DNA from: Clostridiaceae bacterium
GTDB taxonomy: Bacteria > Bacillota > Clostridia > Saccharofermentanales > Saccharofermentanaceae
Assembly: GCA_012523365.1 (NCBI GenBank)
Contig: JAAYIQ010000067.1
Span: forward strand, 1-36,421
Length of the DNA stretch: 36,421 bases
Direction: 5' to 3'
Of the stretch, positions 21,617-29,569 are shown piece after piece. The notes below the pieces were generated by a model. That model was not told the DNA's origin and made no database searches. It was given only the letters and a program-made list of their open reading frames with translations. Within the stretch, counting starts at the first letter, position 1. Every line of letters begins with the position of its first letter. Made by a program: the position numbers and the translations under genes.

Positions 21617-21652
21617 AACCGGTCCGGATCGTTGATCCGGACCGGTTTCTTT
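21617..21652. terminator. bidirectional terminator between clpC and the converging gene
   Basis: A perfect 14-bp stem (21617-21630 with 21634-21647) with a GTT loop, followed on the plus strand by TTCTTTAT. It lies in the 55 bp between two converging stop codons. The plus-strand T-run is better than the minus-strand one. Confidence 0.85.
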
Positions 21653-22535
21653 ATGTCGGGAATATAAGCGAAACCAAAAGCAGGACCAAGAGTTTGGAAA
21701 CCAAATAGGTGACTGTATAAACGGAGATCATCATCAGGAAGATTGAGTCTTCCGAGAGACCGAGCGCATTGCGGAAGGCGAGGATCTGGGCCAACCCCAT
21801 CAGAATCAATCCGATAAAAAGAAACGCGATCGAACTACTGCTGCCGAGCAAGACCATGAAAAGAAGAATGAACTCCGGGATCAGCATATAGACCAGAGAC
21901 ACGGAGATGAGATCCAATGTTTTGCGAAAAGTCGGCTTGCGGTTACCGAAGCGTGATGTCGCGAAAAAGCCGAGCGTAAGAAGCATTATAAAAATCAAGG
22001 TCACCAGAGCCAGCACCCCGAAGGCCGGTGCGGGATATTTGCGACAGTACTCGACGGCCTTCTCCCCGAAGATTGATTCCATCATCCCGGTGAACAGAAA
22101 AGAGTTTGCGTAAACCAGTAACACGCCCAAAAGTCCGGTCAGAAGAGAAAAGACTGCGACAGTCACCAGAGAGAACGGACGCTTCGCGCGAAGCGATTCC
22201 TGACGGATCTTTGTCGCCGGCCGCATAATATAGCCGGCGCTCGACATGACTCCGCTTGTAAAAGTGGGGAATATCGTACGCAATTGATCGGCGAGTGTTC
22301 CGAAACGAAAACCAGGACGCAGAGGGCGATCCTTGCGGTTCCGGCGCACGCGCGGGCCCGGCTCCGGAGCGGCCTTTGAATGATTTGTCGAGGCTTTTTC
22401 TCCGGCTTTGCGAGAATCCGCTCTTTTGTCGCGGCGAGTCGAATCTTTCGGCGAAGCATTGCCGCTTGCGGTCCGGCATTTGCATTTTTCGCCGGGCGCC
22501 AGCTCCTGTCCGCAATAAAAACAGTATTTTGCCAT
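21651..22535 (-). CDS. zinc-ribbon and Yip1-like integral membrane protein
   Basis: A 294-aa protein with an N-terminal zinc-ribbon (YCFYCGQELAPGEKCKC, cysteines near residues 5, 8, 18 and 20). A basic, probably disordered linker follows (about 22-75). The C-terminal half has about five membrane helices, starting near SLVTVAVFSLLTGLLGVLL. The arrangement resembles Yip1-domain proteins of Gram-positive bacteria, whose function is mostly unknown. GGAGG lies about 11 bp upstream of the ATG. It is transcribed divergently from the acyltransferase at 22706 and converges on clpC. Confidence 0.65.
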   Translation of the reverse strand: MAKYCFYCGQELAPGEKCKCRTASGNASPKDSTRRDKRADSRKAGEKASTNHSKAAPEPGPRVRRNRKDRPLRPGFRFGTLADQLRTIFPTFTSGVMSSAGYIMRPATKIRQESLRAKRPFSLVTVAVFSLLTGLLGVLLVYANSFLFTGMMESIFGEKAVEYCRKYPAPAFGVLALVTLIFIMLLTLGFFATSRFGNRKPTFRKTLDLISVSLVYMLIPEFILLFMVLLGSSSSIAFLFIGLILMGLAQILAFRNALGLSEDSIFLMMISVYTVTYLVSKLLVLLLVSLIFPT

Positions 22536-24105: not shown

Positions 24106-25488
24106 TTATACGAGTTTTCTTGCCCACTTCTCGCTTCGTACCCGGGCGATGCTGATTCCGACCTTCAGGATTTCTTCCAGGCATATGACGATCATCAAAG
24201 CCCAGAAAGGCATGCCGAAGTAGAAACAAACCAACAACGCGAGCGGTACTCCGAACAGCCAGAGCGTGCTGACTTCGATGATCGCCGCACCCATCGTGTC
24301 ACCGCCTGCGCGGAGGATCCCGTTCATGTTTGTAAAATTGATCCCTCTGGCCCAAATGACAAAGGAGATGATCACCAATGCCTGGTGTGCGTAGCGTAAT
24401 GCGTCCGCGGTCAGATTCGGGAACGGAAGCAGTAACACTTTGCTCAGAAGGATGAAGACCGGGCAAAGGATCAGACCCGTAATCAGAATAAGACGCAGAA
24501 GGCGCCACGCGTAGTTTTTTGCGCGATCGATTTTTCCGCTCCCGAGCTCGTGCCCGATCATGATGCCGCCTGCGCTTCCGATAGAGCAAAACGCAATGTT
24601 CATGAACTCGCCCAGATTCGAGTACGCATTGTATGCGGCGGTCTGCGCGACCCCCAAATATGTGAAGCAGATGCTGTACACCGTGACGCCGAGCGCCCAT
24701 AACTGATCTTTAGCCATCATCGGAAGCGCCGCGATCGTAAATTTGCGGAGAAGCAACCGATCCGGACGGACGATATCCTTTCTCGAAAAGGTGATCGGTA
24801 CGTTCGATTTTCGTGCAAGAACAATGAGCAGGATGAGCTCAACAAGCGATCCGATCACGGTGGATAGAGCGGCGCCCTTGATCTCCAATCGGGGGAACCC
24901 CAGAAAACCGTAGACGATCACGCTATCCATTAGTACGTTGATCCCGATCGATACCGCGGACGCGATCATCGGGATCCGGGTGATTCCTACCGAGCGAAGG
25001 ACACCGCAAAACATCGCGGTCATAAACCAGAAGAGATAAGCGAAGCTGACGATCGACAGGTATTCAGATCCCAGCTCACGAGTTCGCGGATCCTGAGAGA
25101 GGATGAGCATCACCTGATCGCGAAAAAAGAAGCCGATGATAAAAAACGGGATCGCGATGCCGGCTCCGAAAAGGAGGGTCGTTGTGAAGGCCTTGCGTAC
25201 TCCGACAATATCTTTGTCCTTACCCCAGTACTGAGCCGCGTAGATCGAGCCTGCGCCGGATATGGCAAAAAGTCCGCTCCACATCAGGAAGGTCAGGTGT
25301 CCGGATTGCCCGGAGGCGCCGAGGTACTCGTCGCCCAGTCCACTGACGATGATCGTGTCAAACAGGAAGACACAGCACATCATCAACTGTTGAAGAGCCA
25401 TCGGGATGGTCAGTTTTACAAGTTTTTTATTGAATTCCCGGTCCTTTTCGGGGAAAAGGAATTTCTTGAATTTTTGGATCGGACTCAT
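24106..25488 (-). CDS. MATE-family multidrug/metabolite exporter
   Basis: A 460-aa polytopic protein of normal MATE length, with about 12 hydrophobic segments in two similar halves. The first half starts LVKLTIPMALQQLMMCCVFLFDTIIVSGLGDEYLGASG and the second around LRKFTIAALPMMAKDQLWALGVTVYSICF. MATE proteins export cationic drugs or metabolites in exchange for Na+ or H+; the substrate here is unknown. GGCGGGAG is 6 bp before the ATG. The gene has a dedicated promoter some 320 bp upstream, with a leader ORF and a terminator between promoter and start codon. Confidence 0.92.
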   Translation of the reverse strand: MSPIQKFKKFLFPEKDREFNKKLVKLTIPMALQQLMMCCVFLFDTIIVSGLGDEYLGASGQSGHLTFLMWSGLFAISGAGSIYAAQYWGKDKDIVGVRKAFTTTLLFGAGIAIPFFIIGFFFRDQVMLILSQDPRTRELGSEYLSIVSFAYLFWFMTAMFCGVLRSVGITRIPMIASAVSIGINVLMDSVIVYGFLGFPRLEIKGAALSTVIGSLVELILLIVLARKSNVPITFSRKDIVRPDRLLLRKFTIAALPMMAKDQLWALGVTVYSICFTYLGVAQTAAYNAYSNLGEFMNIAFCSIGSAGGIMIGHELGSGKIDRAKNYAWRLLRLILITGLILCPVFILLSKVLLLPFPNLTADALRYAHQALVIISFVIWARGINFTNMNGILRAGGDTMGAAIIEVSTLWLFGVPLALLVCFYFGMPFWALMIVICLEEILKVGISIARVRSEKWARKLV

Positions 25489-25576
25489 AGTTTACTCCCG
25501 CCGCAACCGCGGCTCTTTGATTTCGGTTCGCATCCCTTCCGGGACTTGATATTTCGTTCTTTTCGGCGGGATGAGC

Positions 25577-25611
25577 AAATAAAAAATCCCGTCGGGCGAT
25601 ACCCTCCGGGA
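25577..25611 (-). terminator. intrinsic terminator inside the MATE leader (attenuator candidate)
   Basis: On the minus strand TCCCG (25611-25607) pairs with CGGGA (25591-25587), and GGG with CCC further in, across a GA/GA internal loop and a 5-nt loop. TTTTTTATTT follows immediately. It lies 26 nt after the leader-ORF stop and about 90 nt before the MATE start. Confidence 0.82.
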
Positions 25612-25637
25612 CAACGATTTCTCTTCGATTCATTCGA

Positions 25638-25760
25638 TCAGAAAGACGTCGGCGGAGCGGCATGGATATATGCGGAATCGGCGATTGCGCCTGAAATACT
25701 TGCAAAGACCTTGCGTTTGGCGGTAGTAAACCGCATGGATCCGTTATTCTGTACTCGCAT
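25638..25760 (-). CDS. 40-codon leader ORF upstream of the MATE gene
   Basis: AGAAAGGAGAG stands 6 bp before an ATG at 25760, and the frame ends in TGA at 25640-25638. The peptide is 40 aa, begins MRVQNNGSMRFTTAKRK and ends HAAPPTSF. It is not recognisable as a known protein family. It is the first thing translated from the MATE promoter, and an intrinsic terminator follows directly. The KRK triplet at residues 15-17 has the form of a basic-X-basic motif, a class known to favour macrolide-dependent ribosome stalling. That link is inference only. Confidence 0.6.
   Translation of the reverse strand: MRVQNNGSMRFTTAKRKVFASISGAIADSAYIHAAPPTSF
25664..25742 (-). other. possible structured RNA in the MATE leader
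   Basis: On the minus strand GGAT..ATGCGG (25742-25731) can pair with CCGCAT..ATCC (25675-25664), ten pairs around a 2x2 mismatch. This would enclose hairpins GCAA/TTGC (25714-25702) and GGCG/CGCC (25691-25680). An alternative hairpin GCGGT/ACCGC (25734-25720) uses part of the same left arm. It does not match a riboswitch class I know. Confidence 0.35.
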
Positions 25761-25813
25761 CGGCCGCTCTCCTTTCTCTATTTGATTGACGATAAGTCGT
25801 CGGTAACCAGATA

Positions 25814-25842
25814 AGAATATCGCCGTTTTTGAGGTTTGTCAA
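25814..25842 (-). promoter_or_regulatory. sigma-A promoter of the MATE leader transcript
   Basis: On the minus strand TTGACA (25842-25837), a 17-bp spacer, TATTCT (25819-25814). The predicted start point is near 25806, about 46 nt before the leader ORF. Confidence 0.82.
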
Positions 25843-25940: not shown

Positions 25941-27473
25941 ATGAGAAAAAGAAATGTTGTCTTGATATTGGTCATATCATTGATTGTAATTGCTCTGTCT
26001 GTCGGTTCTTGCGCAACAGGTAATACGGACGCGAGTAAACAAACAAATACGGCAGACCGGAAGCAAGCGGAGTTTGCCGTCACTACCTTTATGTCAAAGC
26101 TGCCGACCGCTCTTCTCACCGACGGAGACGCGGAAATACGAGCTTATTTTGATCGAAATGAAGGCTTCGAGCAGTTGTCGGAAGAGGGCCTGTCCTGTGT
26201 CAATGCCGCACTGAAGAGGGTAACCTTTACGATTTCGGAAATGACGATCGAAAAAGACGGGCTGTCGGCGCGATGCCGCTTGAGTATTACGGATGTGGAT
26301 CCCGAAGGCATGCTGTCCGGATTTTCCGGCCCCAAAATCCCCGCGAACGATGCGAAGACGTTGATTTCGAAGGAAGACGCGATTTTACGGACTTCGGACT
26401 GCGCGATTTTACTGACGAAGAACCGGGAGAGTAATTCGTGGGAAGTTTCAGACGCGGACGAATTGATTGAACTCCTGATCGGCTCGTATACAGCGCATGA
26501 GTATGTCCGGGTCGATCCCGTTGTGTCTCTGCTTGACTTTACGAAAACTCTGGCAGAGGGCAAAGTGTATGAGAACGATTTTTATCTGGCCAAGCCGGCG
26601 AAATGGGAGTTACTCTATCCGGAAGATTCTCTTCCGAAATTCGAAACGGCCTTTTTTAAAGCAACGAGCTATCAAGTGATCGAGGTTTCCTATAACGGCG
26701 ACGAGTGCGTGATTCTTACAGAGATCGACTACCCGGACGTATACTTTGTGAATACGATTTTGGCGAGCGACCAGGAGATCCTTATGTCTATGCACCGGGC
26801 CGCAATCCTCAATTTCTTGACCGGAGATCCGGTCGACTTGAGCGAAACGGACCGGTTGGCGGACCAAAAGGGCGTCGAGTTTCTCCTGGATCCCGATACG
26901 CCTCATCTGACAGTGAAACAAAGCTTTCGACTGGTTCTTGCGGCAGGCGAAAAATCATGGATGGTTTCCGGGTTGCCCGAGGTGTTAACGGAGAAAAATT
27001 ACGACTTTGACGAAAGCGGCGAGAAACAGAATATCGCGGCTTTTTACAAAGCCTTGGAACAAATGCTGGACAAAGAAGAGATCACCGAGAAAACATATAA
27101 GGATATATTGCGACGGACCGGATTGGATCCGGTCAACACGGAAATCACAGAAGATATTCTTTCACAGGACTGGGTCGATGTGCAGACGGAACAGCCGGTC
27201 AGCGATTATGTAGCGGCGGAATCCAACGGGATCAAGTATCTGCTGACTTTTCGCTCCGCATGGCCCGATACAAAAATATACGGCGCCTATTATCTGGACG
27301 GAGGCATGAGGCCGATCCATGAATTTGAGCGGGTTCTTGGAAAAACCGATACGACATTCTCGACCTGCTTGGTCGGAACCGATACGGTGACGATCCCGAC
27401 GGGGTCGTATCGGCTCACTCTGACACTCGTCGACGGAACAATCCTGGCTTCCGCCGATGTCGAAGTCCGATAA
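25941..27473 (+). CDS. putative lipoprotein of unknown function
   Basis: A 510-aa protein. Residues 1-23 form a signal peptide (MRKRNVVL, hydrophobic core) ending in a lipobox-like VGSC with the modified cysteine at 24. A short polar linker follows, then a mostly alpha/beta extracytoplasmic region rich in Asp, Glu and Thr. A C-terminal stretch of about 90 residues (KIYGAYYLDGG to the end) could be a small beta-sandwich. I recognise no catalytic motif or family. GAGG is about 8 bp before the ATG. It starts about 100 bp from the divergent MATE promoter and precedes pgk-tpiA. A surface-anchored role is likely; more cannot be said. Confidence 0.7.
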   Translation: MRKRNVVLILVISLIVIALSVGSCATGNTDASKQTNTADRKQAEFAVTTFMSKLPTALLTDGDAEIRAYFDRNEGFEQLSEEGLSCVNAALKRVTFTISEMTIEKDGLSARCRLSITDVDPEGMLSGFSGPKIPANDAKTLISKEDAILRTSDCAILLTKNRESNSWEVSDADELIELLIGSYTAHEYVRVDPVVSLLDFTKTLAEGKVYENDFYLAKPAKWELLYPEDSLPKFETAFFKATSYQVIEVSYNGDECVILTEIDYPDVYFVNTILASDQEILMSMHRAAILNFLTGDPVDLSETDRLADQKGVEFLLDPDTPHLTVKQSFRLVLAAGEKSWMVSGLPEVLTEKNYDFDESGEKQNIAAFYKALEQMLDKEEITEKTYKDILRRTGLDPVNTEITEDILSQDWVDVQTEQPVSDYVAAESNGIKYLLTFRSAWPDTKIYGAYYLDGGMRPIHEFERVLGKTDTTFSTCLVGTDTVTIPTGSYRLTLTLVDGTILASADVEVR

Positions 27474-27570: not shown

Positions 27571-27622
27571 CCGTTTGAATACCTCCCTTTCGGGGAGTGA
27601 GTGATTAAGGAGAGTGAGCATC

Positions 27623-29569
27623 ATGGCAATGGTTCCCAAGAAAAATGTTGAAGATCTGAAAGTAGCCGGTAAGAAGGTTATCGTGCGCGTCGATTTTAAC
27701 GTGCCGCTGGATAAAAAGACCGGTGAAATCACCGACGATAAGCGCATTAAGGGTGCGATCCCGACGATCAAGTATCTTGTGGACAACAAGGCGAAAGTGA
27801 TTTTGGTTTCTCACCTCGGACGCCCGAAGGGCGGACCGGAGCCGGCTTTTTCGATGAAGCCGACATCCGTACGCCTGTCAGAGCTCCTCGGTCAGCCGGT
27901 CATTCAGGCCGAAGATGTCGTCGGAGAGGATGCCAAGGCTAAGGCCGCTGCTCTTCAGGACGGCGAGATCCTAATGCTTGAGAATGTTCGCTTCCACAAA
28001 GAAGAATCTAAGAATGATCCCGCGTTTGCCGCCGAATTGGCTTCGCTTGCGGAACTTTATGTTAACGACGCTTTCGGTACGGCACACCGTGCTCATGCTT
28101 CAACTGCCGGACTCGCAAACTTCCTTCCGAGTGCTTCGGGGTATCTGATCGGGAAAGAACTCGAGATCATGGGTAAATCCCTGACCGCTCCGGAGCGCCC
28201 TTTTGTCGCAATTCTCGGCGGCGCCAAGGTTTCCGATAAGATCGGTGTCATCGAGAATCTTCTTGAGAAGGCCGATACGATTATCATCGCCGGCGCCATG
28301 GCCTATACTTTTGACTTTGCCAAAGGCTACAATGTCGGGGCATCACTCTGCGAGCCGGACAAGGCGGAGTTGGCCAAAGAGCTTCTCGCGAAGGCTGAGG
28401 CGAAGGGTGTAGAGATTTTGCTTCCGAAGGATAATGTGGTCGGCGATTCATTCTCTGCCGAAGCGGAATCCAAGATCGTCTGCTGTGAACATATACCCGA
28501 CGGCTGGATGGGCATGGATATCGGTCCGGAGACGATCTCGATTTTCTCCGAAGCGATCAAGAAAGCAAAGACCGTCGTTTGGAACGGCCCCGCAGGCGTT
28601 TTCGAGTTTGATAAATTCGCGGAAGGAACCCGCGCGATCGCAAAAGCGATTGCCGAGTCTGACGCCGTTTCGATCATCGGCGGCGGAGATTCCGCCGCGG
28701 CGGTCGAGAAGCTCGGTTTCGCCGATCAGGTAACGCATATCTCGACGGGCGGAGGTGCTTCACTCGAATTTATTGAGGGAAAGGTTCTGCCCGGCATCGA
28801 TTGTCTGCAGGATAAAGATCCCGACCGCACATTCGCGGCCGGCAACTGGAAGATGAATAACGGCATCCCCGCCGACGCGGTCAAACTGATCGATGCGCTC
28901 AAGCCGTTGGTCAAGGACGCAACGTCCAAGATTGCAGTGGGCGTTCCCGCTACTGCTTTGCCGGCGGCGCTTGAGGCGGCCGCATACACTAACATCAAGG
29001 TAGCGGCACAGAACTGCCATTTCGAGGATAAGGGAGCATATACCGGGGAGCTTTCCCCGATGTGGCTCGCGAAAATGGGCGTCGACTATGTGATCATCGG
29101 ACACTCGGAGCGAAGAGAGTATTTTGCCGAGACGGATAAGACCGTTAACAAGAAGATCAATGCAGCTTTGAAATGGGGAGTTCGTCCGATCGTCTGCTGT
29201 GGCGAGTCTCTCGCTCAGCGTGAAGCCGGCGAGACCTTCACTTGGGTAAAGGGACAGATCGAAGGAGCTTTTGCCGGAATTCCCGAGTCGAAGCTTTGCC
29301 AGATTACGATCGCTTATGAGCCGATCTGGGCGATCGGTACCGGAAAGGTTGCGACCGACGAGCAGGCCGAAGAGGTTTGCGCGTTTATCAGAAAGACCAT
29401 CGGAGAATTATATTCCGGGGAAGCGGCCGCGAACATGAAGATCCAATACGGCGGCTCGATCAATGCGGCGAATGCCGCGGGGCTTTTTGCGCAGAAGAAC
29501 ATCAACGGCGGACTCGTCGGCGGTGCTTCTTTGAAGGCAGAGGATTTCGCGACGATTTGTCTGGCCTGA
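27623..29569 (+). CDS. pgk-tpiA: phosphoglycerate kinase / triosephosphate isomerase fusion
   Basis: One 648-aa polypeptide carries two glycolytic enzymes. Residues 1 to about 395 are phosphoglycerate kinase (1,3-bisphosphoglycerate + ADP to 3-phosphoglycerate + ATP): [29 protein letters not shown], and the nucleotide-binding [13 protein letters not shown]. Residues from about 402 are triosephosphate isomerase (dihydroxyacetone phosphate to glyceraldehyde 3-phosphate). Its active-site residues are present: K410 in AGNWKMN, H494 in IGHSERR and E566 in [12 protein letters not shown], with the C-terminal [10 protein letters not shown] phosphate loop. The join is in frame with only a few linker residues and no stop or frameshift. 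AAGGAG is 10 bp before ATG 27623; GTG 27614 is too close to it. Similar Pgk-Tpi fusions are known in Thermotoga. Confidence 0.96.

Follow-up and report, generated by a model that had tools for sequence, protein, structure and literature searches.

How is a transporter gene expressed when an intrinsic terminator stands between its promoter and its start codon? This question is raised by the minus strand of a 36,421-nucleotide stretch of DNA from a Clostridiaceae bacterium (the window), where a promoter, a short open reading frame (ORF) and a terminator precede the gene for a 460-aa MATE-family efflux transporter (24106–25488, minus strand, ATG at 25488). The product exceeds the curated MatE cut-offs of both Pfam (PF01554, 142 bits) and NCBIfam (TIGR00797, 180.5 bits against a cut-off of 147.4), and the genome carries at least four MATE pumps. 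Our proposal is ribosome-mediated transcription attenuation of this MATE gene, a reading to which we assign a probability of about 0.77. The first-pass annotation of the locus had recognized such a layout; its ORF, terminator and spacing hold, joined by a conserved antiterminator, and its macrolide interpretation of a KRK triplet does not.

Leader anatomy

All parts previously named upstream of the MATE gene are present at their given positions and follow one another in the order described. The sigma-70-type promoter (TTGACA-17-TATTCT, 25842–25814, minus strand) is identified by sequence match and by its counterparts in orthologues, the match by itself being weak evidence (5 matches versus 3.3 ± 1.5 in shuffles). 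The ribosome-binding (SD) region of the leader, GGAGAGCGGC, spans 25772–25763, and AAAGGAGAG precedes the leader ATG at 25760. From here the leader ORF runs for 40 codons (25760–25638, MRVQNNGSMRFTTAKRKVFASISGAIADSAYIHAAPPTSF), and both genus-mates carry an ungapped 40-codon frame.

The intrinsic terminator (25611–25577) follows 26 nt after the leader stop codon and is supported by folding and covariation. Its stem, UCCCGGAGGGUAUCGCCCGACGGGA (25611–25587), has a folding energy of −15.8 kcal/mol when folded alone. Five perfect base pairs are separated from another stem by a GA/GA internal loop, and the T-run TTTTTTATTT then extends to 25577. The internal loop causes a simple terminator scan of the window to miss this element; the 54-nt terminator region is nevertheless more stable than shuffled sequence (z = −3.25). 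On the opposite strand, a 162-codon open frame (25297–25785, plus strand) overlaps the MATE start and the entire leader in antisense orientation, probably by chance.

Conservation in orthologues

We compared the window with five further MATE orthologues, the whole set spanning three genera at 60–84% protein identity. L002 and L003 (JAAYCT010000035.1 and JAFGGR010000046.1; MATE 84% and 80% identical) share the genus of the window locus (L001), and L004, L005 and L006 (60–62% identical) come from two other genera of the same family; the comparison thus comprises six sequences, two groups of which are close. A contig search for further orthologues returned only the genus-mates L002 and L003, and no more were found among 391 class-sampled or 398 phylum-sampled genomes.

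Promoter, SD, short ORF and terminator occur in the same order in all six orthologues, and comparison of the upstream regions, as the first-pass annotation had proposed, shows the short ORF, the terminator and their spacing to be kept in 6/6. Each leader ORF is preceded by a promoter of the form TTGAC[A/T] with a 17-nt spacer and 10–11 of 12 matches. From L001 to L006, the ORFs measure 40, 40, 40, 35, 35 and 38 codons, and the gap between leader stop codon and terminator is 26, 26, 25, 27, 27 and 29 nt. The same scan finds no such leader upstream of any of 24 further MATE genes from the order (0/24) or at the three other MATE genes and the ABC-F gene of the same genome, and within the window it recovers one of 22 genes, the MATE gene itself (0/21 others). 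This comparative evidence lifts the leader architecture above chance.

A covariance model (R1) built on five leader loci was searched against the 115 genomes of the family and the window genome. High scores are confined to the five input loci, and no convincing copy occurs elsewhere in these genomes. Four weak matches in another genus of the family (g2, L046–L049; E 0.008–0.08 per genome) are likely noise, as chance predicts for 115 genomes. Elsewhere in the order, a strong terminator (−22 kcal/mol) precedes an unrelated MATE gene (L023) by ~215 nt, with a 12-codon ORF 85 nt before this terminator; this may be the terminator of the upstream gene or a different leader.

The distance beyond the terminator bears on whether the leader is a unit of its own. 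In L004 and L005, only 34–35 nt separate the terminator from the likely MATE ATG, too short for a second promoter, and the MATE gene is therefore reached by read-through in these two loci. In none of the six orthologues does the interval from terminator to MATE contain a promoter with at least 9 of 12 matches. Taken together, these sequences indicate that MATE must depend on read-through past the terminator. An independent small-protein or sRNA gene ending at its own terminator, followed by a MATE gene with its own promoter, had been offered as an alternative, and a terminated RNA of ~230 nt is expected either way. The short spacing in two orthologues and the lack of a good intervening promoter disfavour it, as does the observation that the unit always precedes MATE and has no convincing copy in the 115 family genomes or the window genome; we consider it very unlikely.

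Leader peptide

The predicted leader peptides are MRVQNNGSMRFTTAKRKVFASISGAIADSAYIHAAPPTSF in the window, MRIQANGTLRFTTAKTIRCYIVSGNFAVSADMRAAPPSTF in L002, MRKQSNGILRFHTAKRPALNKASGMITISAYFYAVLPMFP in L003, MYIIMTIRRINSYIISDNARTHQRTHSHASSLKVF in L004, MYNNITIRRTKSHPIGAKAYALQRTHSHASSLKVF in L005 and MIVSGDVRTGLCQILRSATNYHAAGCAASITLSPDLFA in L006. Beyond the first 15 codons they are poorly conserved. Differences among the genus-mates show no third-position bias, and the changed codons are mostly non-synonymous. Under neutral substitution, start, stop and frame would all be retained with a probability of 0.07, 0.03 and 0.16 in three pairs. Because the changed codons are mostly non-synonymous, translation itself, perhaps together with the first 15 codons in the genus, seems to be kept rather than a fixed peptide.

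The KRK triplet, which had been likened to macrolide-stalling motifs, occurs in L001 only; it is KTI in L002 and KRP in L003 and is absent elsewhere, and a conserved Arg/Lys-X-Arg/Lys (+X+) motif of the erm/hflXr type is absent across the six leaders. The trp and his leaders share the architecture of the MATE leader, with leader, terminator and antiterminator all present, which raises classical amino-acid attenuation, a stall caused by shortage of one particular charged tRNA. The leader translations contain no trp/his-type string of codons specifying a single amino acid, the leaders of the three genera have no obvious control codon in common, and the controlled gene encodes an exporter rather than a biosynthetic enzyme, making this scheme highly improbable.

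Rapid change of the peptide alongside conserved RNA helices could also mean that the attenuator senses a metabolite, a tRNA or an RNA-binding protein and that the short ORF is incidental. A scan of the whole window for known riboswitches and T-boxes gave no match to any Rfam family at the gathering score. All six leaders retain SD, start, frame and stop, and the gap of 25–29 nt from stop codon to terminator is fixed in otherwise unrelated sequence; a metabolite aptamer needs neither. A sensor that bypasses the ribosome is therefore unlikely, and fast peptide drift within a fixed RNA geometry makes the ribosome-mediated attenuator a clean case for asking whether the sensor is translation or the peptide.

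Antiterminator and terminator

Inspection by eye had revealed no convincing antiterminator at this locus. We find one, with paired changes, and folding yields the mutually exclusive stems that the first-pass annotation had suggested looking for: antiterminator and terminator exclude each other. The antiterminator is one long hairpin. Segment A (AUGCCGCUCCG, 25663–25653), its 5′ arm, is defined by folding, covariation and a pairing scan and ends ~13–15 nt ahead of the leader stop codon. It pairs with CGGAGGGUAU (25608–25599), which forms the 5′ arm and loop of the terminator. The 5′ arm of the apical hairpin (25651–25612) includes the leader stop codon, which therefore sits in the upper stem; this hairpin and CGGAGGGUAU are supported by folding and alignment. 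When transcripts are cut at the terminator loop, with the 3′ arm absent, the antiterminator folds in L001, L002, L004, L005 and L006. It thus shares the terminator 5′ arm and overlaps the leader ORF, as an attenuator requires, and is weak in L003.

In the five-leader alignment, 80.8% of the antiterminator cells are paired, compared with 41–53% when the structure is slid along the sequence, and 6/14 pairs of the apical hairpin have changed on both sides. For the terminator 97.8% of the cells are paired, and 3/9 pairs have changed on both sides. Each covariation score is reached by 0/500 shuffles. Double changes in the antiterminator are confined to the upper hairpin, and the helix between segment A and the terminator 5′ arm shows one-sided (wobble) changes only. 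Besides the conserved parts, the analysis thus shows two mutually exclusive, covarying structures, both conserved, and such a pair is the core of an attenuator.

Equilibrium folding favours the completed terminator in most folds. In sequences shortened to mimic a ribosome stalled mid-leader, it beats the antiterminator by 2–14 kcal/mol, and with a ribosome mask its probability is ~0.9–1 at almost every ribosome position. With the complete terminator, equilibrium folding under the mask showed no switch with ribosome position. Because equilibrium favours the complete terminator, the switch would have to be kinetic, with the antiterminator forming first, and the decision to terminate would be made during transcription. 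The same preference at nearly all ribosome positions would suit a constitutive dampener, a terminator that reduces MATE expression by a constant proportion; such a device would leave the conserved competing antiterminator without purpose, and we hold it to be hardly credible.

Proposed mechanism

In the ribosome-mediated attenuator that we favour, transcription would start near 25807 and a ribosome would load on the 40-codon leader ORF. A ribosome that reached the stop codon at normal speed would cover segment A and melt the stop-codon hairpin, allowing the terminator to form; most transcripts would then end near 25577 as an RNA of ~230 nt. Were the ribosome to stall early in the leader, segment A would pair with the terminator 5′ arm, no terminator would form and polymerase would read into MATE. 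We infer leader translation and stalling, as well as the inducer and the export substrate of the pump. Given the gene controlled, a ribosome-targeting antibiotic would be the most likely cause of the stall, and the switch most likely turns the pump on only upon ribosome stalling, as antibiotics cause.

A small hairpin within the leader ORF, GCGGUUUACUACCGC (25734–25720), has arms that are nucleotide-identical in three species; it is similarly placed in L006 and absent from L004 and L005. It is a candidate RNA polymerase pause hairpin, which could keep polymerase and ribosome in step.

In the genus of the window, control may extend to translation, through a second hairpin covering the ribosome-binding site of MATE. 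Here UCCCGCCG (25571–25564) pairs with the MATE SD region, and the ribosome-binding region CGGCGGGA (25503–25496) is predicted to be sequestered. The hairpin is predicted in the three genus-mates and carries a compensated change in L003 (CCCGCCG/CGGCGGG to CCCGTCGC/GCGACGGG); it is absent from L004 and L005. Folding does not support an antiterminated state in which the terminator 3′ arm pairs with 25571–25564 and frees the MATE SD.

A possible third state

The leader SD region GGAGAGCGGC is also complementary to segment A, making it a candidate anti-antiterminator arm. This pairing is position-specific in 5/6 leaders: the stretch of the ORF most complementary to the ribosome-binding region of the leader itself contains segment A and keeps a constant position relative to the stop codon (about −14 to −27; window-specific shuffle p 0.001–0.05). 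The terminator 5′ arm in turn resembles an SD (GGAGGG, GGAAGG, GAAGGUG).

We folded the leaders with a ribosome mask at the stage before the terminator 3′ arm is made. Without a ribosome, pairing between the SD region and segment A is predicted in L002, L004, L005 and L006, L002 being a mixture. With a ribosome on codons 1–2 (up to codon 4 in L006 and codon 6 in L002), segment A is predicted to pair with the terminator arm in these four leaders, and with a ribosome at the stop codon no such pairing is predicted in any of them. The effect is modest against shuffles (21, 8 and 8 of 200 for L002, L004 and L006). It is absent in L001: for the window, folding predicts no third state, and the antiterminator forms whether or not a ribosome sits early in the leader.

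We offer the third state as a lead from modelling. It is possible, if doubtful, that the leader's own ribosome-binding site acts as an anti-antiterminator, that the pyrimidine-rich segment 14–27 nt before the stop codon chooses between the SD and the terminator 5′ arm, and that only a ribosome on the first few codons frees this segment. If true, such a switch would respond to ribosomes stalled at initiation or early in elongation, and would tell this condition apart from both absent and normal translation.

Comparison with known leaders

Ribosome-mediated attenuation has been shown by experiment for the bmrB/bmrCD, vmlR, yxjB and Listeria leaders (PMC4191407, PMC9226507, PMC6851288, PMC8079631, PMC6310831). 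In the 53-codon bmrB leader of Bacillus subtilis, ribosome-targeting antibiotics induce read-through, for which the leader must be translated (PMC4191407). The MATE leader resembles it in having an ORF of similar size and a terminator with alternative stem–loops ahead of a multidrug exporter. The bmrB terminator lies inside the ORF, whereas that of the MATE leaders lies 25–29 nt past the stop codon, and bmrCD is an ABC pair rather than a MATE exporter.

The vmlR leader (B. subtilis) combines an anti-antiterminator, antiterminator and terminator with a hairpin over the downstream SD, and an early stalled ribosome frees the antiterminator (PMC9226507). The predicted logic of L002 and L004–L006 is identical. 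The vmlR uORF, in contrast, has three codons (MIN) and its target is an ABC-F factor, while the MATE leaders have 35–40 codons and the 3′ end of the ORF itself serves as antiterminator arm. The yxjB (tlrB) leader of B. subtilis, which is induced by tylosin and needs both ribosome stalling and polymerase pausing (PMC6851288), likewise combines leader peptide, terminator and SD-sequestering hairpin; it controls a 23S rRNA methyltransferase instead of a MATE exporter. Rli53-lmo0919 and rli80-hflXr of Listeria monocytogenes are induced by translation inhibitors (PMC8079631, PMC6310831) and share a short ORF, a premature terminator and mutually exclusive folds with the MATE leaders. Their ORFs have three and 14 codons, and rli80 contains an RLR macrolide motif that the MATE leaders lack.

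Our literature search found no MATE exporter under leader-peptide attenuation, which is no proof of absence, most subscription papers being outside its reach. Apparently, this is the first leader attenuator on a MATE exporter, the type of switch itself being already known. Antibiotic-sensing leader attenuation, so far seen with ABC exporters, ABC-F factors, methylases and HflXr, would thereby extend to a MATE exporter, in a lineage of Clostridia whose identifiable relatives are all metagenome assemblies. Among the MATE pumps of the genome, at least four in number, the leader singles this one out as probably induced by ribosome stress, which hints at its substrates.

Genomic surroundings

Between the genes for a Clp ATPase and an acyltransferase, a 294-codon frame (21651–22535, minus strand) has no Pfam or NCBIfam match. 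The divergent neighbour of the MATE unit (25941–27473, plus strand) encodes a 510-aa protein that begins with a lipoprotein-like signal (LSVGSC) and likewise matches no Pfam or NCBIfam model. A gene at 27614–29569 (plus strand) encodes a fused phosphoglycerate kinase/triosephosphate isomerase (NF010569, 998 bits versus a cut-off of 883), a fusion that is known but uncommon.
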